A stretch of 44,908 nt of DNA from Planctomycetota bacterium (GTDB lineage Bacteria > Planctomycetota > Planctomycetia > Pirellulales > Pirellulaceae), in contig JAGWWZ010000013.1 in the NCBI GenBank assembly GCA_018970165.1, positions 1 through 44,908 on the forward strand, written 5' to 3'. Shown in pieces: positions 11,354 to 27,558 of this stretch. Below the pieces are notes generated by a model that was not told the origin of the DNA, searched no databases, and saw nothing but the letters and a program-made list of their open reading frames with translations. How positions within the stretch are numbered: position 1 is the first letter of the stretch; every line of letters begins with the position of its first letter. The position numbers and the translations under genes were made by a program.

Positions 11354-11393
11354 ATAACATCCCATCAAAGAATCTATCCGCAGTTTGCATCGC

Positions 11394-12101
11394 TCAACTC
11401 CGTTGGAATTCGCGACGCAAACGCGTCATCGCTTGGCAGTAGTCTGCCTCGCGGAAGACAGCGGAACCTGCCACGAGCAAGTCCGCTCCGTGCGCGGTCG
11501 CAGGGCCGACCGTCTGCACATTGATCCCGCCATCGATCTCAAGCAGCAAATCGGGACCGAATCGATCTCGAAGCTGTCGCAGTCGTTCCAAGGCGACCGG
11601 CTCAAAAGGCTGCCCCCCGAAACCCGCAGGGACACTCATCACCAAGACCAAATCGCACAGCGACACATACGGCAACAATCGCTCCATCGAGGTCGCTGGA
11701 TTGATGGCCAACCCAGAAGCGACACCTTGGTCGCGAATCGATTGGAGGATCGGCCCGGGATCTCCGGAACCCGCTTCAATATGGAATGTGATACTGTCCG
11801 CTCCCGCATCGATGAACTGATCCGCGTATTGTGCTGGATCGGAGATCATGAGATGCACATCCAATTTCAGCGATGTGATCTTGCGCAAAGCCGCAACAAT
11901 CGGCATGCCGTAGGTCAGGTTGGGGACAAAGTGTCCGTCCATAACATCCAGATGGAGCACATCCACTCCGGACTCCTCAAGCAAATCCACCTCGCGACGC
12001 AGATTGGCAAAGTCGCATAATAGCAACGACGGGAGGATCGAAGGGCGAATCCCCCGAAGGTATTCGATCGTGGCAACGGCGCGGGAACCGGGTTCAGACA
12101 T
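11394..12101 (-). CDS. rpe: Ribulose-phosphate 3-epimerase
   Basis: Interconverts ribulose-5-phosphate and xylulose-5-phosphate in the pentose phosphate pathway. The 235-aa TIM barrel shows all family signatures: 'IRPSILPSLLLCDFANL' at the N-terminus, the metal-binding 'VLHLDVMDGHFVPNLTYG', 'ITFHIEAG' and the phosphate-binding 'LLEIDGGINVQT' near the C-terminus. It leads a minus-strand group (rpe, a phosphatase-like pseudoenzyme, accD), and the 379-bp gap upstream separates it from the divergent uvrC. It complements zwf, found earlier in the window. Confidence 0.96.
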   Translation of the reverse strand: MSEPGSRAVATIEYLRGIRPSILPSLLLCDFANLRREVDLLEESGVDVLHLDVMDGHFVPNLTYGMPIVAALRKITSLKLDVHLMISDPAQYADQFIDAGADSITFHIEAGSGDPGPILQSIRDQGVASGLAINPATSMERLLPYVSLCDLVLVMSVPAGFGGQPFEPVALERLRQLRDRFGPDLLLEIDGGINVQTVGPATAHGADLLVAGSAVFREADYCQAMTRLRREFQRS

Positions 12102-12480
12102 AAAGGGCCGAAGTCAGTACAACATCAATCAATTCCTAGCACGATAACCAACTACGGGCTAGGTCCACAAGAGGCAATCCCTCAGCCGCGACTGCGAACA
12201 AAGCCGGAAGCGCAATAGCCGCAAGGAGTTATGTCGCTTTAGAGATCTTGCCTTATTCGTCCCTCGCTCACGCGTCGGGTTATGATAATCCCCAGCAAGA
12301 GACTACTTGCTAGCAATCGCGATCGCGAAAAGCCCGACATGCGCAAAGGCCGACATGGAGCCTCTTTACCTCGCCCGTCCAGGCGTTGCCTTGTGAGGGG
12401 TTCGCGAATTTGCTAGTTTCCAGTTGGCCGGAAGGCCGCTTGCTTCCTCGCTGAGAGCCACAAAAACGACGGACTGCCTT
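12102..12480. other. Gene-free divergent intergenic region between rpe and uvrC, with back-to-back palindromes
   Basis: 379 bp without a credible gene or tRNA. At 12307-12316 there is a perfect 10-bp palindrome TTGCTAGCAA, followed at once by a perfect 12-bp palindrome TCGCGATCGCGA (12317-12328), about 150 bp upstream of the uvrC ATG. A half-copy TTGCTAGT recurs near 12410. The region must carry promoters for both genes; I could not place convincing -35/-10 elements. Confidence 0.6.
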
Positions 12481-13986
12481 ATGCCAGAACCTGGCGATGA
12501 ACTCGACAACTCTGAGGAAGAAATCGACGACTCGGGTTCGCTGGCTACCCAGGAACAGATCGAGCGTCTGGAAGCACTGCGCTCTGGGAACGTAGGATTC
12601 CGTCGCGCGGCTGAAAAGGTCAAGGACTTTCCGCAGGAACCGGGGGTCTACCTGATGAAGGATGCCTCAGGTGTGGTGATCTACGTCGGCAAGGCCAAGA
12701 ACCTCCGCTCCCGCGCCGGGAGTTACTTTCATGCTGCGGCTGCTTCCGAGATCCGGACCGCTGACTGGATCCATGAGATTGCCGATATCGACTGCATGGT
12801 GTGCGCTAGCGAAGTGGAAGCTTTGCTCACCGAGAATCGCTTGATCAAAGATATTCAACCGCGGCACAACAAAGATCTCAAGGACGATAAGACCTTTCCT
12901 TACCTGATGATTACCACGCACGAGGATTTTCCGCGTGTCGAAGTGACTCGGACCCCGAAAGATAAAGGAGCAAAGCTCTACGGACCATTCACCAGTGCCG
13001 GACAACTTCGCGGGGCGTTGCAGGTTATGCAACGTGTTTTCAAGTTCCGCACTTGTTCGCTCGATATCGAGGAAAGCGATCCCAGATGGCAATGGTTCCG
13101 ACCATGCCTGCTCGCATCGATCCAACAGTGCACGGCACCGTGCAATCGACGAATCAGCAAAGAAGACTATCGTCGAGATATTCGGCGCCTGCAGACTTTT
13201 CTTGATGGCGGTAGCGAACGGCTTCTCAAACAGATGCGGGAAGAGATGAAGGAGGCATCCTCGAAGCTCGATTTCGAACGGGCTGCACGCCTGAGAGACG
13301 AGATCCAGCTTCTGGAAAACTTGAACCGCCGCGGCGAAATCGATGTCCACGCGCAACCCGAGGTCTTTTACATCGATCCCAAAAAGGGAATGCGGGCGCT
13401 GAAAAAGGTTCTGGGAATGGAGAATGAACCTCGCGTGATCGAGGGAGTCGATATCGCGCATCTCGGAGGAACCGATACGGTAGCTTCGGTTGTGCAATTT
13501 CTCGATGGGCTTCCGTTCAAGCCTGGCTATCGACGCTACAAAATCCAAGGGGTCGAGGGAATCGATGATTTCCGCTCGATCCACGAAGTCATCTCGCGCC
13601 GCTTCAAAAGAAAGTATGAGGAAAACGAAGCCTTTCCCGATCTGCTTATGATCGATGGGGGGAAGGGGCAACTCAACGCTGCCCGAGCAGCATTCCGCGA
13701 CTGCGATCTTCAGCCACCCACTTTGATATCGCTAGCAAAGAAGGACGAAGAGATTTATCTGCCCGATGAGAAGGATCCTATTCGATTAGGGCGGGAATCG
13801 TTTGCGCTAAGGCTTTTGCAATACATTCGGGACGAAGCCCACCGCTTTGCACAACACTATCATCACATCCTTCGAAACAAGAGTTCTTTTGAGCAAAAGA
13901 CTGGTAAACCCGGCGGACGTCGAACCCCTAGCAAAAAAGGGGATAATCAGGGAGCCTCGGGAAAGGAATCTTCGGAGGAAGATTAA
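12481..13986 (+). CDS. uvrC: Excinuclease ABC subunit C, short form without the C-terminal HhH domain
   Basis: The dual-incision nuclease of nucleotide excision repair. From the ATG at 12481 it is 501 aa, about 100 shorter than the ~600-aa norm. Visible domains are the GIY-YIG 3'-nuclease (PGVYLMKDASGVVIYVGKAK, ~residue 53), a UVR motif for UvrB contact (KLDFERAARLRDEIQ, ~270), and the RNase H-like 5'-nuclease with 'EGVDIAHLGG', 'LLMIDGGKGQLNAA' and RDEAHRFA. After RDEAHRFAQHYHHILR the protein ends in a basic, Ser/Gly/Lys-rich tail instead of the tandem helix-hairpin-helix domain that binds DNA around the lesion. Only 117 bp remain before pckG, so no frameshifted HhH is hidden downstream. An acidic ~40-residue N-terminal extension precedes the GIY-YIG domain. 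Confidence 0.93.
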   Translation: MPEPGDELDNSEEEIDDSGSLATQEQIERLEALRSGNVGFRRAAEKVKDFPQEPGVYLMKDASGVVIYVGKAKNLRSRAGSYFHAAAASEIRTADWIHEIADIDCMVCASEVEALLTENRLIKDIQPRHNKDLKDDKTFPYLMITTHEDFPRVEVTRTPKDKGAKLYGPFTSAGQLRGALQVMQRVFKFRTCSLDIEESDPRWQWFRPCLLASIQQCTAPCNRRISKEDYRRDIRRLQTFLDGGSERLLKQMREEMKEASSKLDFERAARLRDEIQLLENLNRRGEIDVHAQPEVFYIDPKKGMRALKKVLGMENEPRVIEGVDIAHLGGTDTVASVVQFLDGLPFKPGYRRYKIQGVEGIDDFRSIHEVISRRFKRKYEENEAFPDLLMIDGGKGQLNAARAAFRDCDLQPPTLISLAKKDEEIYLPDEKDPIRLGRESFALRLLQYIRDEAHRFAQHYHHILRNKSSFEQKTGKPGGRRTPSKKGDNQGASGKESSEED

Positions 13987-14103
13987 TCTCGCCCCGATAC
14001 CGTTTCTGGTCTCCCAGGGAAGGAACCTCCTGCGGTATCCTGTTGAATGGTTTACGAGTTCTGATCCGATCAACCACCTCCTATTTGACTTCACTGCTCC
14101 AGC

Positions 14104-15927
14104 ATGGCTGACGTGACCCTGCAACATAAACCACTGATTACTTTGTCGCACAAGGCACTTGCCAACTGGGTTATGGAGACTGCACTGCTTTGCGAGGCGG
14201 ATAGCATCCGCTGGTGCGATGGCTCTCAGGAGGAGTGGGACGAACTGACCAATGAACTTGTTGAGCGAGGGACGTTGATTCGGCTGAACCCGGAACTGCA
14301 CCCGAACTCCTTCCTTGCACGAAGCCACCCCTCGGATACAGCTCGCGTCGAGGATCGGACCTTTATCTGTTCGCGTCGCGAGGGGGATGCCGGACCGATG
14401 AATCACTGGCGTGATCCCGATTCGATGCGCAGTCTGTTGATCGAGAAGTTTCGCGGTTGTATGCGAGGAAGAACGATGTATGTCGTTCCCTTTTGCATGG
14501 GACCACTCGACAGCCCCCTAGCGCTCGTAGGTATCGAGATCACAGATTCTCCCTATGTTGTCGTCAGCATGCGCATTATGTGCAACATGGGGGAGAGGGT
14601 CTTGAGGAAACTCGGGAGCGATGGTCCGTTCGTTCCCTGCTTGCACAGCGTCGGTGCTCCGCTCGATCCGGAACAAAAAGATGCGGCATGGCCGTGCAAT
14701 GACGAAAAGTATATCGTCCATTTCCCCGAGACGCGGGAAGTTTGGTCGTACGGCAGCGGCTACGGTGGCAATGCTTTGCTCGGAAAGAAATGTGTTGCAC
14801 TCCGAATCGCCAGCACCATCGCTCGCGACAATCGATGGATGGCCGAACACATGCTGATCATGGGCTTAGAAGCCCCCGATGGTCTGAAGACTTATATCAC
14901 CGCCGCATTCCCAAGCTCATGCGGGAAAACCAATCTTGCGATGATCGTACCCCCGGAACGCTATCGAGACATGGGTTGGAAAACGACGCTAGTCGGGGAT
15001 GACATCGCGTGGTTATGGCCTGGCAAGACCGGGAAACTGCATGCCATCAACCCGGAACGCGGATTCTTCGGCGTTGCCCCAGGAACATCATGGCAATCCA
15101 ATCCCGGCGCCATGCATGCCATGTCTCGCAATACAATCTTCACCAACGTTGCTCTCACGGATGAACTGGGCGTGTGGTGGGAAGGTCTATCGCCCCCGCC
15201 TGCTCATTTGATCGATTGGACGGGTAACGACTGGAACCCGCATTGCGGACGATTGGCAGCCCATCCCAATTCCCGCTTCACCGCGCCGGCAGACCAATGC
15301 CCCAACATCGATCCCGACTGGCAGAACCCAGAGGGAGTTCCGATCGACGCTATCGTCTTCGGAGGACGCCGCCCGACCACATTGCCGCTCGTATTCCAAG
15401 CCTTTGACTGGACGCATGGAGTGTTTCTCGGGGCAACACAGGGCTCGGAGACCACCGCTGCCGCAACTGGCCAGGTCGGCACGGTTCGCCGCGACCCGAT
15501 GGCGATGCTCCCTTTCTGCGGCTACAACATGGGGGATTACTTCGGCCACTGGCTGGAAATGCGGAAGCATATCCAGCGGCTGCCCCGAATCTTTCACGTG
15601 AACTGGTTCCGAAAAAACCCGAATGGCAAGTTCCTTTGGCCGGGTTTCCGCGAGAACATGCGAGTCCTCGAGTGGATCGTGAACCGTTGCCACGGACGTA
15701 TTCCAGGTCACGAAACCCCCATAGGATGGACCCCCGACTGGGTGGATTTCTGCGTGGATGGCCTCGATGGCTTCGATGAGGCCCAATTCGATGCCGCGAT
15801 GCAATTTTCTCGGGAAGAATGGCTGGCGGAAATCATGAGCCAAGAGGAGTTTTTTCTTCGGCTCTACCACCACATGCCCAAGGAACTATTGTGCCAGAGG
15901 GAACTCCTCATGGCCAGAATGGCTTGA
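14104..15927 (+). CDS. pckG: Phosphoenolpyruvate carboxykinase (GTP)
   Basis: Converts oxaloacetate and GTP to phosphoenolpyruvate, GDP and CO2, the gateway to gluconeogenesis. At 607 aa it has the size of the GTP-type enzymes rather than the shorter ATP type. The P-loop with the reactive cysteine is in '[15 protein letters not shown]' (~residue 267). The N-terminal '[16 protein letters not shown]' and the late '[19 protein letters not shown]' segments are typical. The ATG at 14104 gives a standard N-terminus. It follows uvrC by 117 bp on the same strand; the two are not functionally related and may be separate units. Confidence 0.97.
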
Positions 15928-15963
15928 GGAGAGCAACCTTCTTTCAAATCGGTCTTGCCTCGG

Positions 15964-15993
15964 TTGACATACCGCTTCCCCTGAGCCTACCAT
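15964..15993 (+). promoter_or_regulatory. Candidate sigma70-type promoter for the YHS-like secreted protein
   Basis: TTGACA at 15964-15969 matches the -35 consensus exactly. TACCAT at 15988-15993 matches the -10 in four of six positions, with an 18-bp spacer. It lies 45 bp before the start codon of the next gene, which also has a strong GGAGG site at 16028-16032. Confidence 0.5.
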
Positions 15994-16038
15994 GTTATTC
16001 CAGTACGTACCCCTTGTATAACCCTTTGGAGGATTGGA

Positions 16039-16482
16039 ATGAAGACATTTATTGCTGCTATGTTCGCTTTCGCCGTAGCGTTCTCTGCTGTAAGCGTTTA
16101 CGCCGAGAAGGTCGATGTATCGAAGGTCAAGTGCTTGATCTCGGGAGCTGCTGCCAAGGAAGACAAGACCGCTGATTGGAAGGGCGGAAAGGTTTATTTC
16201 TGCTGCGGCAACTGCCAGAAGAAGTTCACCGATGACTCTAAGAGTTTCGCGGCTAAGGCTAACCATCAGCTAATCGCTTCCGGCCAAGTCACCCAGGGCG
16301 CATGCCCATTCTCCGGTGGCGAATTGAACAAAGACGCCAGCGTCGAGTTCAAGGGAGCCAAGATCAGCTTCTGCTGCAACAATTGCAAAGGCAAGGCTGA
16401 GAAGATGAGCGACGACGATAAAGTTGCTAAGCTCTTCGGTGACGAAGCCTTCGAAAAGGCCAAGTTCGCCGTAGCCAAGTAA
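16039..16482 (+). CDS. Small secreted protein with duplicated YHS/TRASH-like cysteine motifs
   Basis: A 147-aa exported protein with a clear signal peptide (MKTFIAAMFAFAVAFSAVSVYA, residues 1-22). Two related modules follow. The first runs from the Cys in KCLISGAAA to YFCCGNCQKKF; the second from ACPFSGGELN to SFCCNNCKGK. Each pairs a single Cys with a downstream C-C-x-x-C about 25 residues on, after a W/F-KG-K/A strand. This is the pattern of YHS/TRASH metal-binding domains, so periplasmic copper or other metal handling is plausible but not shown. Its own promoter, a GGAGG ribosome site six bases from the ATG and a strong terminator mark it as monocistronic and possibly well expressed. Confidence 0.8.
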   Translation: MKTFIAAMFAFAVAFSAVSVYAEKVDVSKVKCLISGAAAKEDKTADWKGGKVYFCCGNCQKKFTDDSKSFAAKANHQLIASGQVTQGACPFSGGELNKDASVEFKGAKISFCCNNCKGKAEKMSDDDKVAKLFGDEAFEKAKFAVAK

Positions 16483-16513
16483 TCTTCGGCCCTCATGCCG
16501 ATAACAACTTAGG

Positions 16514-16543
16514 AAGCCTGCTCATACCGAGCAGGCTTTTTTG
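16514..16543 (+). terminator. Rho-independent terminator after the YHS-like gene
   Basis: A perfect 10-bp stem AAGCCTGCTC / GAGCAGGCTT (16514-16523 and 16529-16538) with a 5-nt loop ATACC, followed by a T-run to 16542. It lies 32 bp after the stop. On the other strand no T-run follows, so it is directional. Confidence 0.92.
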
Positions 16544-16646
16544 TTTGCCTAATCATTGTCCAGTAAGTCCAAGTAGATAGCGATCGTGAATTAACAAACA
16601 GATGCACCGAAGTGGCAAACGTGCATTGAAGCGCAACTTCGAGTTG

Positions 16647-18335
16647 TTAGTCGGGTAGCAGAGCCGCCGCCTGATGATTCTTTCGCATCGATTCCCATAG
16701 AACAGCCAATTCGCTAACACGTTCCGTGTGGTCGGCCGCAACATTTGTCGTCTCAGCGCGATCCTCCCGAAGATTGTACAGTTCCCACGAACTCTCCTTC
16801 CCTGCTGCAACCAGTTTCCAATCTCCTTTCCGAACGGCTCGGTTCTGTTCGTGCTGCCACCACAGGATTCGTTCCTCGGGTGTTTCTCTCTCCGCGGCGA
16901 GTTCTCGATAGGGTGATATGCTCGGTTTGAGCATCGGCAAGAAACTCAAGCCGGGAGGGGAGGGTATTCCGCTCGATTGAGCTTCATCGGATCGGCTCAT
17001 GGGTTTGCCGCTGGCGATCTCAAGTAGAGTGGGAGCGACATCGATGACATGCAAAGGGCTGGCGATCGGTTTGTCGGCGACCTTTACTGCTTCGGGCCAA
17101 TGCAAGATGCATGGAGTGCAAATCCCTCCTTCATGCACCCAAGTCTTGTGTTTGCGAAATGGAGTGTTGCAGACGGTCGACCAACCTGGTCCGAGGCACA
17201 GATAACTTTCCTTCGCGCCAGCAATGGAATCCGCCGAATGGCCATCTCCCCGCACCATGATCTCAGCGCTCGCGCCATTGTCAGAGAGAAACATGATCAA
17301 CGTATTATTCAATTGACCGTGGTTGCGCAGCCACTCGATAAGCCTACCGATCTCCTGATCCATGCTTTCCACCATGGCGGCATGCACGGCCATCTTTCCG
17401 GCTTGAAACGCTTGTTGCTCTGCATTCAGCTCATCCCAAGGTATCGGGCGGTTTACTTCACCAGGCCCCAGTTTCTTCATGGCATCAGGAAACGGATAGG
17501 GAGGTCCGAGTTCTCGCTCCACTTCAGATAGTTGCGTCCCGAGACCGAGAGCCTGCATTCGAGACCAACGTTTTCGACGAACACTATCCCAACCGTCACG
17601 ATATCGTTCTAGGTATCGTGCTACCATTTCGCGTGGCGCCTGCAGCGGGAAATGGGGAGCGGTGAACGCGACCAAGGAAAAGAATGGCGAGTTGGGATAT
17701 CGAGTCGTGTGCTGGTCAAATTGCATCAATGTTCGGTTTGCGATCTCGGTCGTAACATAAAAATTCGCATCGCCATCGACTGCAGGCAACGGTTCATCGT
17801 TCCAGAAATGTCTTTGGGGATGGAAGTATCGATCGTGGTCTTCCAATCGATACGAACTCTCGAAACCGTTCTTCAGAGGCGTGCCATCGATGTGCCACTT
17901 GCCGGAATGGTAGGACTTGTAACCGTGTTGATTGAGCGAAACCGACAGCAGTGGTGCCCAGGTGGGGCGTTTGCCTTGACCGCCACTCGGAACCCCTTCG
18001 ACCTGATCGCGACGAATCTGCTGTGCGTAGTAGCCGGTCATAAGGGCACCGCGCGATGGCCAACAGCGAGCCGTGTTATAAAACTGCGTGAACCTAAGCC
18101 CCCGTTCCGCCAACCGATCCAGGTTCGGGGTTTGAATCTCGGAGCCGTAGCATCCCAGATCTGAGAACCCCAGATCATCCGCAAGGATAATTAAGAGATT
18201 TGGCGGACGTTGCGTGGACTCTTGTCCGTTCCCCTCCGCGCTATGGCACTCGCGGATCGACAAAATAGACGCCACGGCGATCAGACACATCGCAACGACA
18301 CGAAACGACGATCGAAAGAAACTTTTTGAACTCAT
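16647..18335 (-). CDS. Secreted sulfatase (arylsulfatase family, formylglycine type)
   Basis: A 562-aa exported type I sulfatase that hydrolyses a sulfate ester, probably on a polysaccharide. A signal peptide covers ~1-32 (hydrophobic VVAMCLIAVASILSI, cleavage near HSA). Metal-binding 'LLIILADDLGFSDLG' follows, and the formylglycine site is C91 in CWPSRGALMTG, the full C-x-P-S-R signature. Later catalytic segments include 'SGKWHIDG' and 'MFLSDNGAS'. Activity needs a formylglycine-generating enzyme encoded elsewhere. Its start overlaps the stop of the Dnmt2-like gene (ATGA), so it is the last member of a four-gene coupled chain. Substrate is not predictable from sequence; planctomycetes carry many such enzymes for marine sulfated glycans. 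Confidence 0.95.
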   Translation of the reverse strand: MSSKSFFRSSFRVVAMCLIAVASILSIRECHSAEGNGQESTQRPPNLLIILADDLGFSDLGCYGSEIQTPNLDRLAERGLRFTQFYNTARCWPSRGALMTGYYAQQIRRDQVEGVPSGGQGKRPTWAPLLSVSLNQHGYKSYHSGKWHIDGTPLKNGFESSYRLEDHDRYFHPQRHFWNDEPLPAVDGDANFYVTTEIANRTLMQFDQHTTRYPNSPFFSLVAFTAPHFPLQAPREMVARYLERYRDGWDSVRRKRWSRMQALGLGTQLSEVERELGPPYPFPDAMKKLGPGEVNRPIPWDELNAEQQAFQAGKMAVHAAMVESMDQEIGRLIEWLRNHGQLNNTLIMFLSDNGASAEIMVRGDGHSADSIAGAKESYLCLGPGWSTVCNTPFRKHKTWVHEGGICTPCILHWPEAVKVADKPIASPLHVIDVAPTLLEIASGKPMSRSDEAQSSGIPSPPGLSFLPMLKPSISPYRELAAERETPEERILWWQHEQNRAVRKGDWKLVAAGKESSWELYNLREDRAETTNVAADHTERVSELAVLWESMRKNHQAAALLPD

Positions 18336-19216
18336 GATCGAGTGAACTGCATAATATGCGCGACGGCTGGCAGAGAGAGTGAATTACCTAGCAACTGCCA
18401 AAGTCGCCGAGTTGGTAGATGGTCGGGTAAGACAAAATTCGGGGGAAAGCCCAATATATTCGCCACTTCGCGCGGCGAGAACCGGCGTAATCCATATTCC
18501 GTTGCGATATACGAACCAGATTTCGTGATCGCGCGGCCGTACGATGAGCCAAAACAGGCGGCGACCGCATGCGAGTCATCGACATCGACAACATCGAGCG
18601 CCGCTCCATACTTCGAAACTATATCCGCACTTACGCTCAGCCCTTCGCGTTGGGCGGTGTCAGCCTCGTACTGGACAAGGAGATCTATCAAGGCTTTCGA
18701 GAGCGTCAACTCTGGGACCTTGATCAAAGGGACAGTTCCCTGAGTCGCAATCACATAAACGCGAGGTCTCCGATTCGGCCAACCGGTTTCAGTCGGACAG
18801 AGTGTGTGGACCTGCAAGTGATAACCCGATCTTTGCCACACATCGGATAGGCGTTGGAACGTATGCGAGTTCTCAAACCCAACCACGTTCTCCAAGACAA
18901 CGTACGCGGGTCGAATACGGGCCACGGCATCGATTAGGTGAAGCAACGCACGTGTTCGGACATCGTGTAGATCCCTTCGTTCCCCTTTGCGGGTGAATGG
19001 CGTGCAGGGAGGACTCATCCACCAAAGATCCCCTTTTTGAGTTGCGAGCCAGTCTAACGGAATCGTCTCGAGTTCCCGGATAATGTAGGGTGCCGAGAAA
19101 TTCCATGAGTAGACTGCCTCGCTATCGCGATTGATATCGACGGCGGCAACTACTTTTAGCCACGGGCAGGCGGCGTGAAGTCCGCCGATGCCTGCGAACA
19201 GTTCAAGAGTTCGCAC
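18332..19216 (-). CDS. Dnmt2-like cytosine-C5 methyltransferase (probable tRNA C38 methyltransferase)
   Basis: A SAM-dependent C5-cytosine methyltransferase of 294 aa from the GTG at 19216, which gives MRTLELFAGIGGLH. An in-frame extension to 19282 is possible but lies inside the upstream gene. Motif I is LELFAGIGGL. Motif IV has catalytic C71 in 'SPPCTPFTRKGERRD', where Dnmt2 reads SPPCQPFTR. Motif VI is ENV (109-111) in 'YVVLENVVGFENSHTF'. Motifs IX-X match Dnmt2 closely: 'LRRFSPREVANILGFPPNF' and LLGNSL. The Dnmt2 CFT motif appears as CFGSSYG. There is little room for a DNA target-recognition domain, which favours an RNA target. It overlaps the GH63 gene by 14 bp and the sulfatase start by 4 bp. 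No restriction partner is adjacent. A small orphan DNA methyltransferase is the alternative. Confidence 0.85.
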   Translation of the reverse strand: MRTLELFAGIGGLHAACPWLKVVAAVDINRDSEAVYSWNFSAPYIIRELETIPLDWLATQKGDLWWMSPPCTPFTRKGERRDLHDVRTRALLHLIDAVARIRPAYVVLENVVGFENSHTFQRLSDVWQRSGYHLQVHTLCPTETGWPNRRPRVYVIATQGTVPLIKVPELTLSKALIDLLVQYEADTAQREGLSVSADIVSKYGAALDVVDVDDSHAVAACFGSSYGRAITKSGSYIATEYGLRRFSPREVANILGFPPNFVLPDHLPTRRLWQLLGNSLSLPAVAHIMQFTRS

Positions 19217-21947
19217 GGGAGTTAGCTTGGTGTTCCAGCATGGTGGCAACCAATGCGGTCCATCCCGTCTGGTGGCTGGCACCTAAACCTTTGCCATTAT
19301 CGCCATGAAAATACTCGTAGAACAGAACGAGATCTCGCCAATTGGGATCGTTTGCATACCGAGAGTCTCCGCCATGGCAAGGGCGTGTACCATCGGTTCC
19401 CGCGAGAAAGATCCTGACCAATCGTCGTTCCAACTCGTTGGCGACTTGCAACAAATTCATCTGCTGCCCCGAACCGGTCGGGCATTCGATTTGAAACGAG
19501 TCTCCGAAGTATTTATGGTAAGAACGCAAGGATTCGATTATCAAGTGGTTTAACGGAAACCAGATCGGCCCTCTCCAATTCGAATTGCCACCAAACATGC
19601 CTGTGTTGCTTTCACCAGGGACATAGCTCACCGATGACGTTGATCCTTCGTGGTCGAACACAAACGGTTTTTGATGGTGAATTGCGGATAAAGATCGAAT
19701 GCCGTAGGGGGACAAGAACTCCCTTTCGTCAAGCATATAGGTGAGTAGTCTCCGCAATCTCTCCGTCGATGGGATCGCCAGCAGGCGTACTGCGCCAGAG
19801 TGGTCGCCATCAGAACTCTTCTTTTCCAGGTAAGTCATACAGCGCGACATATGAGGTTTGTGCTTGAGGAACCAATCCATGCGCCGAGTAAAGCTCGGGA
19901 TCCGGTGCAAAGTCGATTCGTGTAGAATCACATTCGTGCACAATGGAATCAATCCGACGAGAGAGCGAACTTTGAGTGCAGTACTTCTACCATCGCGATA
20001 CACGTGGTCGTAGTAGAAACCATCACCCTCGTCCCACAGACCGGAGCCGTGCAGCGAATTCATCGCTTCCGAAATGGCGACATAGTGTTCGAAAAACTTG
20101 CTCGCCATGTCGGAGTAGGCCTGGCTCTCATGCGCCAACTCCAATGCCATCTGCAGCATACCGCCGCAGTAAAACGCCATCCAAGCGGTCGCATCCGCTT
20201 GATCAAGAGTTCCGCCACCCGGTAGCGGTTTGCTTCGATCGAACACGCCGATGTTATCGAGTCCGAGAAAACCACCGCTGAACACATGCTGCCCACGCGT
20301 ATCTTTTCGATTCACCCACCAAGTGAAGTTAAGCAGAAGCTTTTGGAAAGTTCGGGCGAGAAAATCGCGATCGCCCGACTGCTTATAGACCTGCCAGCAT
20401 GCCCAGGCGTGCACAGGGGGATTCACATCGCTCAGGGCCCATTCGTATGCCGGGATCTGGCCATTGGGATGCATGTACCATTCACGCAGGAACAGGATGA
20501 GTTGATTCTTCGCGAATTCGACATCGATTTTAGCCATCGGAATCATGTGGAATGCTAGATCCCATGCGGCATACCAGGGGTACTCCCATTTGTCTGGCAT
20601 CGATATCACGTCTCGATTGAATAGGTGTTGCCAGTCGCCATTGCGACCAGCTTTACGTTCCACCGGAAGTGGTTTGCACTCCGGATCCCCCGTAAGCCAC
20701 GCATCGACAACGTAGTAATAAAACTGCTTGGTCCATATCAGACCAGCGTACGCTTGCCTCGCAACACTTTTCTCTTGCTGACTTAGAGCAGGCGAGATGA
20801 TGGAATCGTAATACTCATCCGCTTCAACGATTCGTTGTTCGATGGTGGTATCGAAGTCAGCATCGATGCTCGATGCGCGATCGAGGAGAATGATTTGATC
20901 CGGCGGTGAGTATGGAGGTAGTGGCAATTTCGCACGAGACGTAAGTCGGCATCGCAATACCAGAGGGCGATCCGTATGAACGATTGCCATGTAATGAGCA
21001 GCGCATTTCGTTCCAAACATTTGCGGATTGACGCAGTCGCTATTTCCCTCCAAAACGTATTCATGGAAAGCGTCCTTAAAGAATCGTCCCACGGATGTTG
21101 CTAATGGATGACGATTCGGATTAGTCTCGTTGTCGGTAAATAACCACGCTGGAGATTCGCCATCGGCGTTGGCTTGAACTCGAAACTCGTATTGACCGAG
21201 AGTCTCATGGTCGCACAAAACGACTCCGTGTGGCTCTTCGACGGTGCGTATGAGCCTCAAACGCGGTTTGGTGGTACACCCCTCATGGGTGCATCCCCAG
21301 ACCCAACTGTTGTGAAACCACAATTGTGGAAGAATATGCAGGACTGCAGGCCTCGGTCCTCGATTGTGAACGGTCAGGCGAATGAGTACATCATCGGGCG
21401 ATTCCTTAGCGTACTCTACTTGGCAGTCGAAATAGGCGTTGTTCTCGAAAGCCTCCGCATCCGCCAACTCAAATTCCGGCTCAAATCGAGAACGCGAACG
21501 ACTCCCATCCACCAGTTTTTCATATGGAAATCGAGCCTGTGGGTATTTGTACAGCCCCTTCATATAAGATTGCGTAGGTGTTCCATCGACGTAGTAGTAG
21601 CACTCTTTGACGTCTTCGCCATGGTTTCCCTCCGGACCTGTCAGGCCAAACAATCTCTCCTTCAAGATCGGGTCGCGGGTGTTCCAGAAAGCGAACGAAA
21701 AACAAAGACGCCCTTGCCTATCGCAGATACCGAGCAGTCCATCTTCGCCCCAGCGATAAGCTCGAGATCGCGCGTGATCGTGAGGCAAAAAGTGCCATGC
21801 ATCTTGAGTGTTCGAATAGTCCTCCCTCACCGTCCCCCACTGTCGCTCCGAAAGATAAGCCCCCCAACGCTGCCAATTGGCAGCGCGAGATTTGGACTCC
21901 TGCAGTCGAAGATACTCATCAGTCTGTTCGATAGTGCGTTCGTTCAT
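19203..21947 (-). CDS. GH63-type glucosidase ((alpha/alpha)6-barrel glycoside hydrolase)
   Basis: A 914-aa cytoplasmic protein (no signal peptide) of the GH63/MGH1-like glycoside hydrolase group. The N-terminal half is a beta-rich domain with 'WGTVREDYSNTQDAWHFLPHDHARSRAYRWGEDG', here cited only for its RWGEDG end. The C-terminal half is an alpha/alpha-barrel with 'WDLAFHMIPMAKID', 'PAYEWALSDVNPPVHAWACW', 'GGFLGLDNIGVFDRS', 'WRGPIWFPLNHLIIESL' and 'GWTALVATML', all typical of GH63 and mannosylglycerate hydrolase relatives. It probably cleaves an alpha-glucoside or related sugar inside the cell. Its start overlaps the nagB stop (ATGA) and its end overlaps the Dnmt2-like gene, so it is the second gene of a coupled chain. 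Exact substrate and catalytic acids were not assigned. Confidence 0.85.
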   Translation of the reverse strand: MNERTIEQTDEYLRLQESKSRAANWQRWGAYLSERQWGTVREDYSNTQDAWHFLPHDHARSRAYRWGEDGLLGICDRQGRLCFSFAFWNTRDPILKERLFGLTGPEGNHGEDVKECYYYVDGTPTQSYMKGLYKYPQARFPYEKLVDGSRSRSRFEPEFELADAEAFENNAYFDCQVEYAKESPDDVLIRLTVHNRGPRPAVLHILPQLWFHNSWVWGCTHEGCTTKPRLRLIRTVEEPHGVVLCDHETLGQYEFRVQANADGESPAWLFTDNETNPNRHPLATSVGRFFKDAFHEYVLEGNSDCVNPQMFGTKCAAHYMAIVHTDRPLVLRCRLTSRAKLPLPPYSPPDQIILLDRASSIDADFDTTIEQRIVEADEYYDSIISPALSQQEKSVARQAYAGLIWTKQFYYYVVDAWLTGDPECKPLPVERKAGRNGDWQHLFNRDVISMPDKWEYPWYAAWDLAFHMIPMAKIDVEFAKNQLILFLREWYMHPNGQIPAYEWALSDVNPPVHAWACWQVYKQSGDRDFLARTFQKLLLNFTWWVNRKDTRGQHVFSGGFLGLDNIGVFDRSKPLPGGGTLDQADATAWMAFYCGGMLQMALELAHESQAYSDMASKFFEHYVAISEAMNSLHGSGLWDEGDGFYYDHVYRDGRSTALKVRSLVGLIPLCTNVILHESTLHRIPSFTRRMDWFLKHKPHMSRCMTYLEKKSSDGDHSGAVRLLAIPSTERLRRLLTYMLDEREFLSPYGIRSLSAIHHQKPFVFDHEGSTSSVSYVPGESNTGMFGGNSNWRGPIWFPLNHLIIESLRSYHKYFGDSFQIECPTGSGQQMNLLQVANELERRLVRIFLAGTDGTRPCHGGDSRYANDPNWRDLVLFYEYFHGDNGKGLGASHQTGWTALVATMLEHQANSRANS

Positions 21948-22783
21948 GGAAATTCTCGACCTTGTGTTACTCCCAGAGAAACGCTCTTCAACCGCACGCG
22001 GTTAGCCTCCGATTCACGATAGTAGTCGCAATGAGCCAGAAGCCGACTAGCCTCCTCATCGATCATGATCGTAACGTCTGGATGGAGTTGCAAAACCGAT
22101 GCAGGAACCATGGATGTGACTGGCCCTTCGATCGCATCGCGAATCGCGCGTGATTTCGACTCGCCCGAGGCAATCAGCAAGATCGAACGGGCACTCATGA
22201 TCGTTCCTATCCCCATGGTGATCGCCATTGTGGGAACCTGGTCCATGCTGTCGAAGTAACGCGCGTTGTCGCTTCGCGTCTGCCGTGTCAATGTCTTGAC
22301 CCGTGTGCGCGAAGCCAACGAAGAACCGATCTCATTGAAGCCTATGTGACCATCGGACCCAATACCTAGAATCTGGTAGTCGATGCCACCGGCCTCCTCG
22401 ATTTGCCATTCGTAACTGGCCGCCGCTTCGTTCAGATCCTCCGCGCACCCATCTGGCAGATGGGTATTCTCGCGCGCGATATCGATGTGGTCGAACAAAT
22501 GCTCCTGCATGTAAGCATGGTAACTGCGTGGATCCGAGGAAGAGAGTCCGACATACTCGTCGAGATTGAAGGTGGTGACACTCTGAAACGAAATCTCTCC
22601 CGCACGAAAGTGTTCAATCCACTGACGATACAGGCCGACAGGCGTTCCTCCTGTAGCCAGTCCGAGCACCACGCGTCCCAACCGCTTCCCATGCCTGTTG
22701 GCCAATAAACCACAACGTTCCAACGACTCTTTGCCTGCCACGCGTGCCATCTCGGCGGCGGAATCCAGAATGACTACTCGCAC
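21944..22783 (-). CDS. nagB: Glucosamine-6-phosphate deaminase
   Basis: Converts glucosamine-6-phosphate to fructose-6-phosphate and ammonia, feeding amino sugars into glycolysis. The 279-aa protein from GTG 22783 starts MRVVILDSAAEM like other NagBs; a TTG at 22816 would add 11 residues. Family motifs are 'VVLGLATGGTPVGLYRQWI', the catalytic 'TFNLDEYVGLSSSDPRSYHAYM', 'YQILGIGSDGHIGFNEIG', and 'ITMGIGTIMSARSILLIASG'. It heads a minus-strand chain nagB, GH63, Dnmt2-like, sulfatase in which every junction overlaps. It is divergent from the PVC cytochrome gene across ~195 bp. The association suggests use of an amino-sugar-containing, perhaps sulfated glycan. Confidence 0.93.
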   Translation of the reverse strand: MRVVILDSAAEMARVAGKESLERCGLLANRHGKRLGRVVLGLATGGTPVGLYRQWIEHFRAGEISFQSVTTFNLDEYVGLSSSDPRSYHAYMQEHLFDHIDIARENTHLPDGCAEDLNEAAASYEWQIEEAGGIDYQILGIGSDGHIGFNEIGSSLASRTRVKTLTRQTRSDNARYFDSMDQVPTMAITMGIGTIMSARSILLIASGESKSRAIRDAIEGPVTSMVPASVLQLHPDVTIMIDEEASRLLAHCDYYRESEANRVRLKSVSLGVTQGREFP

Positions 22784-22978
22784 AAATGGAACCCATCTTT
22801 TCGGTGAGGAAATCAACTCGGCTCAGATTGAAATCGAGCCACGATCTGACAGTATGGCTGGGCGCAATCCCTTCGGGCAAGAGACCTCCCCCTCGTTTCA
22901 CTCAGGAATCGATCGACTACACTGGAGTCGAATTCAAAAAAACCGTTTTGGAAAGCATTTACGATTACGGAGCTTGAA

Positions 22979-25900
22979 ATGCAGTCCCTCTCCCGTTGGT
23001 TTCGCATGCCACGCCGAGCCCTGGCTGGCCTCACCCTTGGTTTCAATATCCTAGGAATTGGAATCGCCTCCATCGATTTTTCTGTCGCTACAGGAGAGCA
23101 AGATGGGGGGCAGTCCTCCTCAGCCAATACCAAGGTTTACGAGCAAATGCCGGAAACGGCTCCTGTGCAGGCGACTGACAACTCGGCCGATCAGAGCACT
23201 CGGAACTCGTTGCGAGACCGAGCTTTGGCCGAAGGACCGAAGCCTCTTTGGATATGGGGAGAGGATCCCAATCGCCGCTATGTGATCCGCAAGAAGCTCA
23301 ATGTCCCTGCGATCACCTCTGCTTGGCTTGCGGCCACATGCGACAACAACATGGCGATCGATATCAATGGCCAACAAGTCGCCGTAAGCGACACTTGGGA
23401 AGAAGCTCTGATCGTCGATTTGAGTCGTATCCTGAAGCCAGGGGAAAACGAGATCTCGTTCCAGGTTCAGAATGCGGGCGGCATCGCTGGCTTGGTCGCA
23501 AAATTGGCGATCATCGACCCTCAAGGCAAAGTGACCACGATGGAAACGGGCGAGGATTGGCAAGCGGCACCTCAAAACAAACCCGACACATTCGGTTCGG
23601 CCAAGAAGATCGCAACCTATGGCGATAATCCGTGGGGCAACGTTTTGGCTCCCGAACGATCTTCGCAAGGAACCGGCTTCAATGTGCTTCCAGGCTTTAC
23701 GATCGAACGCCTCTTTCGTGTACCGAAAGATGAGTTGGGCTCATGGGTCGCAATAACCTGCGATCCCAAAGGGCGATTGATTGCGAGCGATCAAGAGAAC
23801 AAAGGCTTGTTCCGCATTACACCACCCAAGGTCGGAAGCAACGATCCTACGCGTGTTGAAAAACTGAAGGTCGATCTTTCGGGGGCTCAAGGTCTACTGT
23901 TTGCTTTCGACAGTCTCTATGTTTGCGTCAATGGAGGCAAGGGAAGCGGTCTCTATCGCCTGAAGGATACCGATGGCGATGATCAGTTCGATGACGTGGT
24001 CTTGCTCAAAGGACTTCGCGGTGGTGGCGAGCACGGGCCGCACGCGCTTCGACTGTCCCCCGATGGCAAATCGATCTATGTATGCTGCGGCAACCATACC
24101 CTGCCACCCGTGGATCGAATATCCAACGCACCTCCTCAAACGATGGGGGGAGCAAGGTCGGAGATCTTGCAGGCGAAACTTCCCGATGGTTACACCAGCA
24201 GAATTGCACCCAATTGGGACGAAGACTTACTGTTACCTCGCCAGTGGGATGCCAATGGACATGCTGCAGGCATCCTCGCACCTGGAGGTTGGATTGCCAA
24301 AACAGATCCCGAAGGCAAGACCTGGGAAATGGTCAGCATCGGTTACCGCAATCAATACGATTTCGCCTTCGACACTGCGGGAGAAATGTTCGCCTACGAT
24401 GCGGATATGGAATGGGACATGGGAGCCCCATGGTATCGACCAACGCGCGTTGTCCATGCAACCAGCGGTAGCGAATTTGGATGGCGAAGCGGGACAGGCA
24501 AGTGGCCAGGATACTATTTGGATAGCCTGCCAAGTCTCGTCGATATCGGGCCAGGTTCACCCGTTGGCGTCGAGTTTGGAACGGGTGCGAAATTCCCACA
24601 AAAGTATCAGCGTGCACTGTTCGTCTGCGACTGGACCTTTGGAACGATGTATGCCATCCATGCCAAGCCTGAAGGCGGTAGCTACACCGCTACCAAAGAG
24701 CAGTTTTTATCTCGCACTCCTTTGCCACTCACGGATGTGGTTATCGGAACCGATGGCTATATGTACTTCACTGTCGGTGGCCGGGGGACACAGTCGGAAC
24801 TGTATCGCGTTCGGTATGAAGGTCCCGAATCGACAGCACCCGCGCCAGCTTTGGAGTTGACGGCAGAGCACCGAATCCGTCGCGATTTGGAACAGTATCA
24901 TACCGACACAACCTCGAACGCAGATGCTGCCGCCCAGCAACTCCTATCGAAACTGAATCATCCCGATCGTCATGTCCGTTATGCAGCGAGAGTCGGTTTG
25001 GAACGGCTTCCTACATCCCTTTGGGCCCCGCGAATTCTCAGCAGTTCGGATCCGCAGACGCTAATCACCGGCGGTACCGCAATCGCTCGTGTTGGCGACC
25101 CATCCCTGCGAACTCCGTTGTTGGAACGAATCGGGTCGATCGATCCACAGCGATTGAGTCCGAACCAACGGTTGGAACTTGCTCGCACGTTGCAATTGAT
25201 TCTGATTCGTTTAGGGGGACTCGATGAAAGCCTTCGCACCGCGATGATTGAAAGGATCGATCCGATGTTCCCATCCGGCGACGACACGCTGGATCGCGAA
25301 TTGGCGATCCTGCTCGCATATCTCGACAGTCCATCGCTGCCTGGCAAGATCCTGCCGCTGCTGGAACGTGAACGACGATTCACCGAAGCGGATTTTACCG
25401 ACATCCTTCAGCGCAACCGGGGTTACGGCGCATCGATCGCAGCCATGCTCGACAATCAACCGGACCTTCAGCAATTCCACTATGCGTTTGTGCTCCGCAA
25501 TGTCCGATCGGGCTGGACACTCGATCAACGCAAGGCCTACTTCCAATGGTTTCAAAAAGCACAGGGTTGGAAGGGTGGTGCCAGCTATGAGAAGTTCCTG
25601 ATCAACATTGCCAACGATGCATATGCGTTGTGCAATGACCAAGAGCGATTCACGTTGGAAGCGCTCGGCTTACGCGAAACCGCATCTATTCCCAAAACCC
25701 TACCAACAGCCGAAGGACCTGGCCGCAAATACACGACGGATGAGATTGCGTCCTGGGTTCCGGAGCGGATGAAGGACCGAAATCTCGAGCGTGGCAAAAA
25801 AATGTATGCTGCTGCTCGCTGTGTCGTCTGCCACCGCTATGGAGGAGACGGAGGAGCGACCGGTCCGGACCTGACACAGGTCGCTGGCCGTTTCTCACCT

Positions 25901-26203
25901 GCGGATTTGATCGATGCGATCGTTCGCCCGAGCCAAGTCATCTCCGATCAATACAAGACGATGGTTCTGCAGACAAAAGATGGAGAAGTCTACACCGGTC
26001 GAGTCGTAAATGATGTCGGCGGCAAGATCACGATCGTTACGGATCCGGAGGATGCAACAAAAACCGTGACGATAGATCGAAGCGAAATCGAGAACGAGAG
26101 GGTATCCAAGGAATCGCAAATGCCAGCGGAACTGCTGGACAAACTCAACGAAGACGAGGTCCTCGATTTGCTTGCCTTCCTACTATCCCGAGGTAAAGCC
26201 TAG
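22979..26203 (+). CDS. PVC-type heme-binding CxxCH protein with beta-propeller (membrane-bound dehydrogenase-like)
   Basis: A 1074-aa exported protein. A basic and hydrophobic N-terminus (~1-40) acts as signal or anchor. Residues ~75-210 look like a galactose-binding-type beta-sandwich (ISFQVQNAGGIAGLVAKLAI). Residues ~225-630 form a PQQ/NHL-type propeller (VAITCDPKGRLIASDQENKG; ALRLSPDGKSIYVCCGNHTL). Residues ~640-830 are helical repeats. A C-terminal monoheme cytochrome c domain has CVVCH near residue 950, 'GGATGPDLTQVAGRF', and the planctomycete-specific 'IVRPSQVISDQYKTMVLQTK' and DGEVYTG tail. Likely role is oxidation of a sugar or related substrate in the periplasm with electron transfer to cytochromes; the substrate is unknown. 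It is divergent from nagB and followed by a repeat region. Confidence 0.9.
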   Translation: MQSLSRWFRMPRRALAGLTLGFNILGIGIASIDFSVATGEQDGGQSSSANTKVYEQMPETAPVQATDNSADQSTRNSLRDRALAEGPKPLWIWGEDPNRRYVIRKKLNVPAITSAWLAATCDNNMAIDINGQQVAVSDTWEEALIVDLSRILKPGENEISFQVQNAGGIAGLVAKLAIIDPQGKVTTMETGEDWQAAPQNKPDTFGSAKKIATYGDNPWGNVLAPERSSQGTGFNVLPGFTIERLFRVPKDELGSWVAITCDPKGRLIASDQENKGLFRITPPKVGSNDPTRVEKLKVDLSGAQGLLFAFDSLYVCVNGGKGSGLYRLKDTDGDDQFDDVVLLKGLRGGGEHGPHALRLSPDGKSIYVCCGNHTLPPVDRISNAPPQTMGGARSEILQAKLPDGYTSRIAPNWDEDLLLPRQWDANGHAAGILAPGGWIAKTDPEGKTWEMVSIGYRNQYDFAFDTAGEMFAYDADMEWDMGAPWYRPTRVVHATSGSEFGWRSGTGKWPGYYLDSLPSLVDIGPGSPVGVEFGTGAKFPQKYQRALFVCDWTFGTMYAIHAKPEGGSYTATKEQFLSRTPLPLTDVVIGTDGYMYFTVGGRGTQSELYRVRYEGPESTAPAPALELTAEHRIRRDLEQYHTDTTSNADAAAQQLLSKLNHPDRHVRYAARVGLERLPTSLWAPRILSSSDPQTLITGGTAIARVGDPSLRTPLLERIGSIDPQRLSPNQRLELARTLQLILIRLGGLDESLRTAMIERIDPMFPSGDDTLDRELAILLAYLDSPSLPGKILPLLERERRFTEADFTDILQRNRGYGASIAAMLDNQPDLQQFHYAFVLRNVRSGWTLDQRKAYFQWFQKAQGWKGGASYEKFLINIANDAYALCNDQERFTLEALGLRETASIPKTLPTAEGPGRKYTTDEIASWVPERMKDRNLERGKKMYAAARCVVCHRYGGDGGATGPDLTQVAGRFSPADLIDAIVRPSQVISDQYKTMVLQTKDGEVYTGRVVNDVGGKITIVTDPEDATKTVTIDRSEIENERVSKESQMPAELLDKLNEDEVLDLLAFLLSRGKA

Positions 26204-26223
26204 ACCACTCTTACCGACCATCG

Positions 26224-26390
26224 CACTGCGATGAACTTGGACATGCATAGGTGAGAACTTGGGTGATGAGAAGTTGTGAGAACTTGGACATGCACTGCGT
26301 TGAGCGAGGTGAGTGTGAGAGGTGAGAACTTGGACAGGCACTGCGTTGTGCATGGTGAGAACTAGGACATGCATTGCATTATGTTGCATG
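26224..26390 (+). repeat. Array of five degenerate REP-like repeats on the left of the transposase
   Basis: The core GAACTTGG recurs at 26233, 26255, 26280 and 26326, with a variant GAACTAGG at 26359, mostly preceded by GTGA and followed by ACATGCA. Copies at 26276-26302 and 26322-26348 share 26 of 27 bp, including a trailing CACTGCGTTG. The last copy carries an inverted repeat CATGCA/TGCATG (26368-26373, 26385-26390) able to fold into a hairpin. The array fills the space after the cytochrome gene and points toward the transposase. Confidence 0.8.
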
Positions 26391-26535
26391 ATGAAATGCT
26401 AGCAACGGTCGCTTCGCAACAAATGGTTCTGTCTTTCGGAAGCTAACACATACTGAGTGGTTGATGAGGTCATTGGACCTGGATATCTTGGCGATCCTTC
26501 TAAGTCCGCTTTTGCCCGAAGGGAGGTACTTCGCA

Positions 26536-27558
26536 ATGACCCAACCGCGTTCAACGATTGTCAATCCCAGCGTCACTCGTTGGTACCACTGCATCTCCCG
26601 ATGCGTGCGCCAAGCATTTCTTATTGCTGACAACCAGGAGTTCGATCGCAAAGCATGGATCGATAACAGGCTCAAGGAATTGAATTCGCTCTTCGCTGTT
26701 TCCGTTGCTGGATTCAGTTCCATGGATAACCATTTTCATCTCCTGCTCCGCATGGATCCCGAGGTGGCCGAAGCCTGGACTCCCCTCCAAGTCGTCCAGC
26801 GTTGGCTCAGTCTTTACCCGCTCCGCGTCAATCGAAGGCCCGTTGTTCCAACACAGGAAGATCTCGATCGATTGGCTTCCGATGCGAAGTGGGTCAAGGA
26901 GAGACGCTCGCGTCTGGCTTCCTTGAGTTGGTTCATGAAATGCTTGAAAGAACCACTCTCTCGCAAAATCAATCGGGAAGAGAAGTGCCGCGGAACCTTC
27001 TTCGAGGGCCGCTTCAAATCGATCGCGATTCTGGACGAGGAATCCATCTTCACAGTCGCGGCCTATATCGATTTGAATCCCGTTGCGGCGGGTATCTGCG
27101 GGTTGCCTGAGCATTCTCCCTATACTTCAATCAAGGAGCGAGTCGAGCACTTGATCGCCCAAGGACGCTTGCTCGACGTTGCGCAGATTCGCAATGGAAG
27201 CGTCGCTGCCAAGCGAGTCAGCGAAGGGATCGAACAGGATCATTGGCTGATCCCCATCGAAGATCAACGCTCTCAGGGTTCAAACCGCGAAGGCATCAAA
27301 GAGGGCTTTACTCTTGGCCAGTACTTGATGCTGGTCGACTGCATGAGCCGATCGGTGCGCGAGGGGAAGGCGAATATCTCGCCGGACGAGGAATCGATCT
27401 TTGAGCGTCTGGAGATGGACGCGCAGTGTTGGTTGGGGAGAGTTACCCAGATGCTGACCAGTCAACGCTTCTATGGAAGTTTCATGTCCGCATCGCGGGA
27501 TGCTCTCCGGCGGGTCGCCCAGAAGTTGGGGGTGCGGCAACTCGCCAACACCGCATAG
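26536..27558 (+). CDS. REP-associated tyrosine transposase (RAYT, Y1/HUH family)
   Basis: A 340-aa transposase of the Y1_Tnp (IS200/IS605-related) superfamily that acts on single-stranded hairpin DNA. The HUH metal site is in 'SMDNHFHLLLRMDPE', the N-terminal strand in 'RWYHCISRCVRQAFL', and the catalytic tyrosine is expected in 'VAAYIDLNPVAAG'. The conserved RGTFFEGRFKS precedes it. The ATG at 26536 is chosen over 26461 because GGGAGG lies nine bases upstream. It is longer than compact RAYTs: ~130 residues after the catalytic helix have no recognised domain. The frame is intact, so the gene may still be active. Repeats of related sequence sit on both sides in opposite orientation. Confidence 0.92.
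   Translation: MTQPRSTIVNPSVTRWYHCISRCVRQAFLIADNQEFDRKAWIDNRLKELNSLFAVSVAGFSSMDNHFHLLLRMDPEVAEAWTPLQVVQRWLSLYPLRVNRRPVVPTQEDLDRLASDAKWVKERRSRLASLSWFMKCLKEPLSRKINREEKCRGTFFEGRFKSIAILDEESIFTVAAYIDLNPVAAGICGLPEHSPYTSIKERVEHLIAQGRLLDVAQIRNGSVAAKRVSEGIEQDHWLIPIEDQRSQGSNREGIKEGFTLGQYLMLVDCMSRSVREGKANISPDEESIFERLEMDAQCWLGRVTQMLTSQRFYGSFMSASRDALRRVAQKLGVRQLANTA

Follow-up and report, generated by a model that had tools for sequence, protein, structure and literature searches.

A Dnmt2-family methyltransferase gene in a member of the Pirellulaceae with tRNA-Glu(UUC) as predicted substrate

Databases name the cytosine-C5 methyltransferase encoded at this planctomycete locus as a DNA methylase only (Pfam, NCBIfam, PADLOC, and PHROGs). 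An earlier note, made from the sequence letters, read it instead as a Dnmt2-like enzyme of a tRNA anticodon loop. Which of these is the better description, and which tRNA would the enzyme modify in this host? The gene lies in the window, that is, the whole stretch of 44,908 nucleotides that we analysed. We worked with two alignments: A1, a 19-row alignment and profile of Pirellulaceae-type relatives, and A2, which contains the query and 59 bacterial relatives (60 rows). The features of the gene are as follows.

18332..19216, minus strand: Dnmt2-type cytosine-C5 methyltransferase of 294 aa, starting with GTG; upstream, the frame stays open as far as 19282
19004..19006, minus strand: codon for C71, the presumed catalytic cysteine, within SPPCTPF of motif IV, counted from the 19216 start
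18548..18556, minus strand: CFG (C221-G223) at the site of the Dnmt2 CFT motif; the third residue varies across A2

Translation of 18332-19216 on the minus strand gave a 294-aa frame with a GTG start and no internal stop. All five motif strings noted earlier for this frame were found in the product: SPPCTPFTRKGERRD, YVVLENVVGFENSHTF, CFGSSYG, LRRFSPREVANILGFPPNF, and LLGNSL. An alternative upstream GTG at 19282 would yield a protein of 316 aa. We preferred the start at 19216 because 11 of the other 18 A1 rows, whose starts were set by motif, have a start codon at the equivalent position. The catalytic motifs of cytosine-C5 methyltransferases were present, namely, PC (motif IV), ENV (motif VI), and RxR (motif VIII). 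Moreover, C71, E109-N110-V111, R150, and R152 were invariant in all 60 rows of A2, which are 35 to 59% identical to the query. This invariance at such divergence points to selection on catalysis.

We initially compared the protein with families and solved structures at the level of sequence. Pfam assigned it to PF00145 (1.8e-31). A single-sequence search of solved structures returned human DNMT2 at 9.1e-44, S. pombe Pmt1 at 2e-31, and M.HhaI at 2.8e-13. The top five distinct solved sequences, from 9.1e-44 to 2e-31, were all Dnmt2 proteins (two human constructs, Spodoptera, Entamoeba, and S. pombe). The gap was wider with the A1 profile, which gave 4.7e-72 for human DNMT2, 2.3e-67 for Pmt1, and 4.9e-34 for M.HhaI. 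The query resembles eukaryotic Dnmt2/TRDMT1 proteins (human DNMT2, S. pombe Pmt1, Spodoptera DNMT2, and EhMeth) in its catalytic motifs, its fold, and the CF-Y-GS of the recognition region, where CF is present together with YG and GS; however, identity to them is only 25 to 32%. The bacterial rows are marked off from eukaryotic Dnmt2 by WW before SPPC (60/60) and by W273 (57/60). From the printed alignments and the length of the human protein, we take R95 and K367 of human DNMT2 to correspond to R87 and R270 here, and K295 and R371 to S224 and Q274. R87 is an arginine in 60 of the 60 A2 rows. The human basic residues R95, K295, K367, and R371 have been named as important (PMC5995894), and the non-basic S224 and Q274 weigh against our reading.

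The earlier note also judged the space left for a DNA target-recognition domain to be small. This measure did not separate the two classes: motifs VIII and IX are spaced by 94 here, compared with 109 in M.HhaI and 102 to 119 in four eukaryotic Dnmt2 rows counted without their unaligned residues. As M.HhaI falls inside the Dnmt2 range, we rejected a compact recognition region as proof of Dnmt2.

A CFT motif has been described as unique to Dnmt2 (PMC3227630; PMC3380923) and, in the first of these papers, is reported to be absent from DNA cytosine-C5 methyltransferases (PMC3227630). Strict CFT is not found in the query, which keeps CF and replaces T by G. Across A2, C is conserved in 58/60 rows, F in 59/60, and the subsequent YG in 60/60, and the residue after CF is T in 46 rows, A in 8, and G in 6. 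The CFG rows are the query, L079, L084, L090, L091, and L125. CFA is more scattered, occurring in Pirellula-type rows and also in L101, L112, and the Syntrophales bin L123. Since CFA extends outside the Pirellula-type group, we regard CFG/CFA as a recurrent variant and not as a clade feature. Within the genus, the 12 carriers in which the motif was covered comprised three with CFG (G000, G025, and G001), five with CFA (G005, G007, G010, G018, and G021), and four with CFT (G006, G011, G022, and G024). The proposal that CFG shifts specificity found no support here: all three forms occur in one genus, yet the tRNA-Glu and tRNA-Asp loops were identical wherever they were fetched. A CFG switch coupled to the host tRNAs likewise found no support.

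The predicted fold gave the same order of kinship as the sequence searches. An AlphaFold2 model built from A2 (mean pLDDT, 95.3; pTM, 0.92) was compared with the PDB by Foldseek. The nearest solved structures, at ranks 1 to 9, were Dnmt2 chains of EhMeth, Pmt1, human, and Spodoptera (TM-score by query, 0.83 to 0.90; identity, 25 to 32%). M.HhaI first appeared at rank 10 (TM-score, 0.81; identity, 20%), and a lower-ranked M.HhaI chain reached 0.84, so that the scores of its chains (up to 0.84) overlap the Dnmt2 range. Since the fold class is common to DNA enzymes, the Foldseek order ranks kinship and is no proof of substrate.

We then placed the protein in a phylogeny. The careful tree had 67 rows (52 bacterial relatives, the query, 4 eukaryotic Dnmt2 proteins, and 10 DNA methyltransferases), and bacterial and eukaryotic Dnmt2 together, including the query, were split from the DNA methyltransferases at 100/99; the tree tool warned of unusual letter make-up in several rows, including EhMeth, Spodoptera DNMT2, and M.HhaI. 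A quick-method tree of 107 rows also placed the DNA enzymes on one side, at 98. The query adjoins L079 (100/96) within the Pirellula-type rows. An approximately unbiased (AU) test that held the query alone with the DNA enzymes lowered the log-likelihood by 23.8 and did not reject this placement (p 0.119). Sequence searches, the A1 profile, the predicted fold, and the tree all place the protein closer to Dnmt2 than to DNA methyltransferases, and on this point the original reading was borne out.

If the enzyme acts on tRNA, the host should offer a tRNA with C38. The draft genome gave 41 tRNA matches, read by ARAGORN into 41 rows (two identical tRNA-Trp genes form one row, and Leu(CAA) in L044 is extra to the 41 matches). 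Three rows have C38: Glu(UUC), with the loop CUUUCAC; Gln(CUG), with UUCUGAC; and His(GUG), with UUGUGGC. The host tRNA-Asp has the loop CUGUCGA (L049:1500-1574) and therefore, with A38, is excluded as a C38 substrate; in this the enzyme differs from eukaryotic Dnmt2, as the classical tRNA-Asp target is impossible in this host. Human DNMT2 has the loop motif C32UNNCAC38 (PMC9976931), and among the 41 host rows CUNNCAC fits tRNA-Glu(UUC) alone. The draft is 95.9% complete and gave no tRNA-Asn; another C38 tRNA could therefore be absent from the set. In the fetched loci of relatives (40 genomes, including the host's own), tRNA-Glu was CUUUCAC in 30/30 and tRNA-Asp was CUGUCGA in 30/30, in carriers and non-carriers of the gene alike. 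Hence, the tRNA-Glu loop showed no covariation with the methyltransferase gene in these loci.

Other bacterial carriers of Dnmt2 have a different tRNA-Asp. Of 20 such genomes, 13 gave tRNA-Asp, and all 16 loci read CUGUCAC, including that of a planctomycete-labelled bin (L151). Phylum-wide, 26 of 29 further tRNA-Asp loci were CUGUCGA, a share biased upward because these loci were those most like the query; the others were UUGUCGA, UUGUCAA, and UUGUCAC. The planctomycete tRNA-Asp genes sampled (L222-L251 and L314-L342) thus mostly carry G37-A38. C38 has been described as an evolutionarily conserved identity element for AspRS (PMC9976931) and as a tRNA-Asp identity element in E. coli (PMC6523644; PMC9976931). 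Given its role in E. coli, the missing C38 of planctomycete tRNA-Asp is odd in itself.

Taken with the host tRNAs, the kinship makes a tRNA anticodon loop the most likely substrate. We consider that the gene is probably a member of the bacterial Dnmt2 (TRDMT1) family and a predicted m5C38 methyltransferase of tRNA-Glu(UUC), not of tRNA-Asp. By analogy with the family, C71 would attack C6 of the cytosine in the anticodon loop and S-adenosylmethionine would supply the methyl group, giving m5C38; judging from the host tRNAs, the target would be C38 in the CUUUCAC loop of tRNA-Glu(UUC). The effect may be a tuning of the decoding, charging, or stability of tRNA-Glu. In eukaryotes, m5C38 affects aspartylation and decoding (PMC4860778; PMC5372726). 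Any effect on tRNA-Glu would be optional, since the gene was not found in 14 of the 27 genus genomes.

The same family and chemistry might serve another C38 tRNA, either His(GUG) or Gln(CUG), or a set of tRNAs in which tRNA-Glu is not the main substrate. Both of these tRNAs do have C38, and Dnmt2 homologues are reported to differ in their substrate sets (PMC5372726). Neither loop, however, fits CUNNCAC, whereas tRNA-Glu does and is also the reported target of Geobacter Dnmt2 (PMC5372726). We consider this explanation unlikely, though it is the best placed of the alternatives.

The closest known parallel to the predicted tRNA-Glu enzyme is the Dnmt2 of Geobacter sulfurreducens (GSU0227, as named in PMC5456315), a bacterial Dnmt2 whose reported target is the one predicted here. 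GSU0227 was compared through Geobacter-labelled relatives, which are 37 to 41% identical to the query. Two of them (L110 and L132) share with it WW before SPPC, a feature required by our scan pattern (see below), but have CFT-YG motifs where the query has CFG. Their hosts also differ from the planctomycete, having C38 in tRNA-Asp where it has A38.

We next weighed the reading as an orphan DNA cytosine-C5 methyltransferase whose DNA targets were either retained or regained. It would account for the DNA methylase names, and the methyltransferase fold and motif plan are indeed common to the query, M.HhaI, and other DNA cytosine-C5 methyltransferases, with overlapping TM-scores and a single-row AU test that stops short of rejection. 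Against it, the DNA enzymes match less well in sequence, rank below the Dnmt2 chains in fold, and lie on the opposite side of the 100/99 branch. In addition, the sole NCBIfam match was the general dcm model at 86.7 bits, below its cut-off of 100.65. Using Pfam, we found no restriction gene among the nine neighbouring ORFs (11385-27558). Six of these were matched (UvrC-type, PEPCK, sulfatase, glycoside hydrolase, 6PGL-type, and cytochrome c), and three had no match. Apart from the methyltransferase, nothing in the draft genome matched PF00145. On balance, a DNA enzyme appears improbable. A methyltransferase of a type II restriction-modification system was rejected, given the low dcm score, the closer Dnmt2 kinship, and the nine ORFs free of a recognizable restriction gene (three of them without a Pfam match).

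The Dnmt2-type gene lies within a co-directional run of genes, with the following neighbours.

16647..18335, minus strand: sulfatase, downstream neighbour (PF00884, 1.1e-49); 4-base overlap with the methyltransferase stop; same neighbour in congeners
19203..21947, minus strand: MGH1/GH63-like glycoside hydrolase, upstream neighbour (PF22422, 9e-26); 14-base overlap with the methyltransferase start
21944..22816, minus strand: glucosamine-6-P isomerase/6-phosphogluconolactonase-type gene, the first of the run (PF01182, 2.4e-23); same order in congeners
22979-26203, plus strand: ORF of 1074 aa that matches cytochrome c (PF00034, 1.8e-8)

The cytochrome c-type ORF, on the opposite strand beside the operon, is also found in the congeners G001, G007, and G018.

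Within the genus, we found a strong match to the methyltransferase in 13 of 27 genomes, compared with 8 of 34 other genomes of the family and 0 of 38 others of the order; weaker matches in these counts were taken as DNA methylases. The gene is accessory, as 14 of the 27 genus genomes show no such gene, while the glycoside hydrolase was matched in 27/27. Six of the 13 carriers (G000, G001, G005, G007, G018, and G025) have the methyltransferase between the hydrolase and the sulfatase, two (G010 and G012) show one flank before the contig end, and five (G006, G011, G021, G022, and G024) have it elsewhere. Among the 14 non-carriers, four (G004, G013, G017, and G019) have the sulfatase immediately after the hydrolase; in the remaining 10 the junction is not visible, because the contig stops, the neighbours differ, or the locus was not fetched. 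At one hydrolase-sulfatase junction, the gene is thus present in some members of the genus and absent from others. The junction with the gene (18332-19216 in the window) and without it (L293, L294, L296, and L297), the neighbours being kept, forms a natural with/without pair.

Beyond the family, we scanned contigs with the pattern WW[MLI]SPPC[TQ], which was taken from planctomycete rows and covers WW members. The scan gave 202 stretches, 166 of them with a relative, and 80 were kept. By record title, these 80 comprise 35 Planctomycetota, 19 Thermodesulfobacteriota, 9 Acidobacteriota, 8 Myxococcota, 2 Actinomycetota, and 2 Pseudomonadota; the titles of the other 5 give no phylum. Most titles are those of metagenome-assembled genomes, and odd single labels, such as Klebsiella bin L143, may reflect errors of binning or naming. 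A named strain, Geobacter argillaceus (L132), carries a relative, and two single-contig genomes of the Pirellulaceae have the gene (G006 and G053). An even sample of the phylum gave matches at 1e-40 in at least 4 of 392 genomes, the host's own included, as first-look candidates were only partly scored. In the phylum of G. argillaceus, 13 of 247 genomes matched at 1e-30, four at 365 bits or more (two already known) and nine at 111 to 140 bits. Of these nine, the four that were fetched (L286-L289) were rejected, as they lack the CF motif and have GFPCQPFS as in DNA methylases. By sequence, the bacterial Dnmt2 family is broad, with a patchy distribution. The patchy presence of the gene across the genus and family, together with the altered CFG, could suggest that the protein of this lineage has the Dnmt2 fold but methylates no nucleic acid, which we regard as very improbable in view of the catalytic residues unchanged across A2.

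A mobile or phage origin was rejected as well. No close relative was found among 72,556 plasmid records (104 matched) or 50,697 phage records (271 matched), all matches being less than 60% identical. Among the best 25 of 104 and the best 20 of 271 by coverage times identity, the top full-length matches were at most 26% identical, and two viral-contig hits, 26% identical, lack the CF motif.

A paper from 2011 named Geobacter as the only bacterial source of Dnmt2 homologues known by then and considered a possible acquisition from eukaryotes (PMC3227630). Compared with open-licence papers, the bacterial branch looks wider than that. In the 67-row tree, the eukaryotic rows form one group (100/97) with no bacterial row inside it, and the bacterial rows form one group at only 63/82. 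The absence of bacterial rows within the eukaryotic group speaks against a recent gain, although only against one from opisthokont or amoebozoan lineages. Joining the eukaryotes to three Geobacter rows was not rejected by the AU test (p 0.086). The tree contained four eukaryotes, from opisthokonts and an amoebozoan, and either direction of transfer would be compatible with it. A tentative scenario, to which we give less than even weight, is that bacterial Dnmt2 is an old and wide lineage that first acted on C38 of tRNA-Glu; eukaryotes would have received Dnmt2 from bacteria and moved to tRNA-Asp, with the glutamate target as what remains in planctomycetes.

In NCBIfam, the general dcm model is matched by all 60 A2 proteins and, apart from weak second hits in two of them, no more specific model is; given these matches, bacterial Dnmt2 relatives are probably annotated publicly as DNA methyltransferases. 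With the family found across several phyla, the question of how a conserved eukaryotic tRNA modification arose becomes testable, and hosts without C38 in tRNA-Asp would provide a natural test of a shift to tRNA-Glu.
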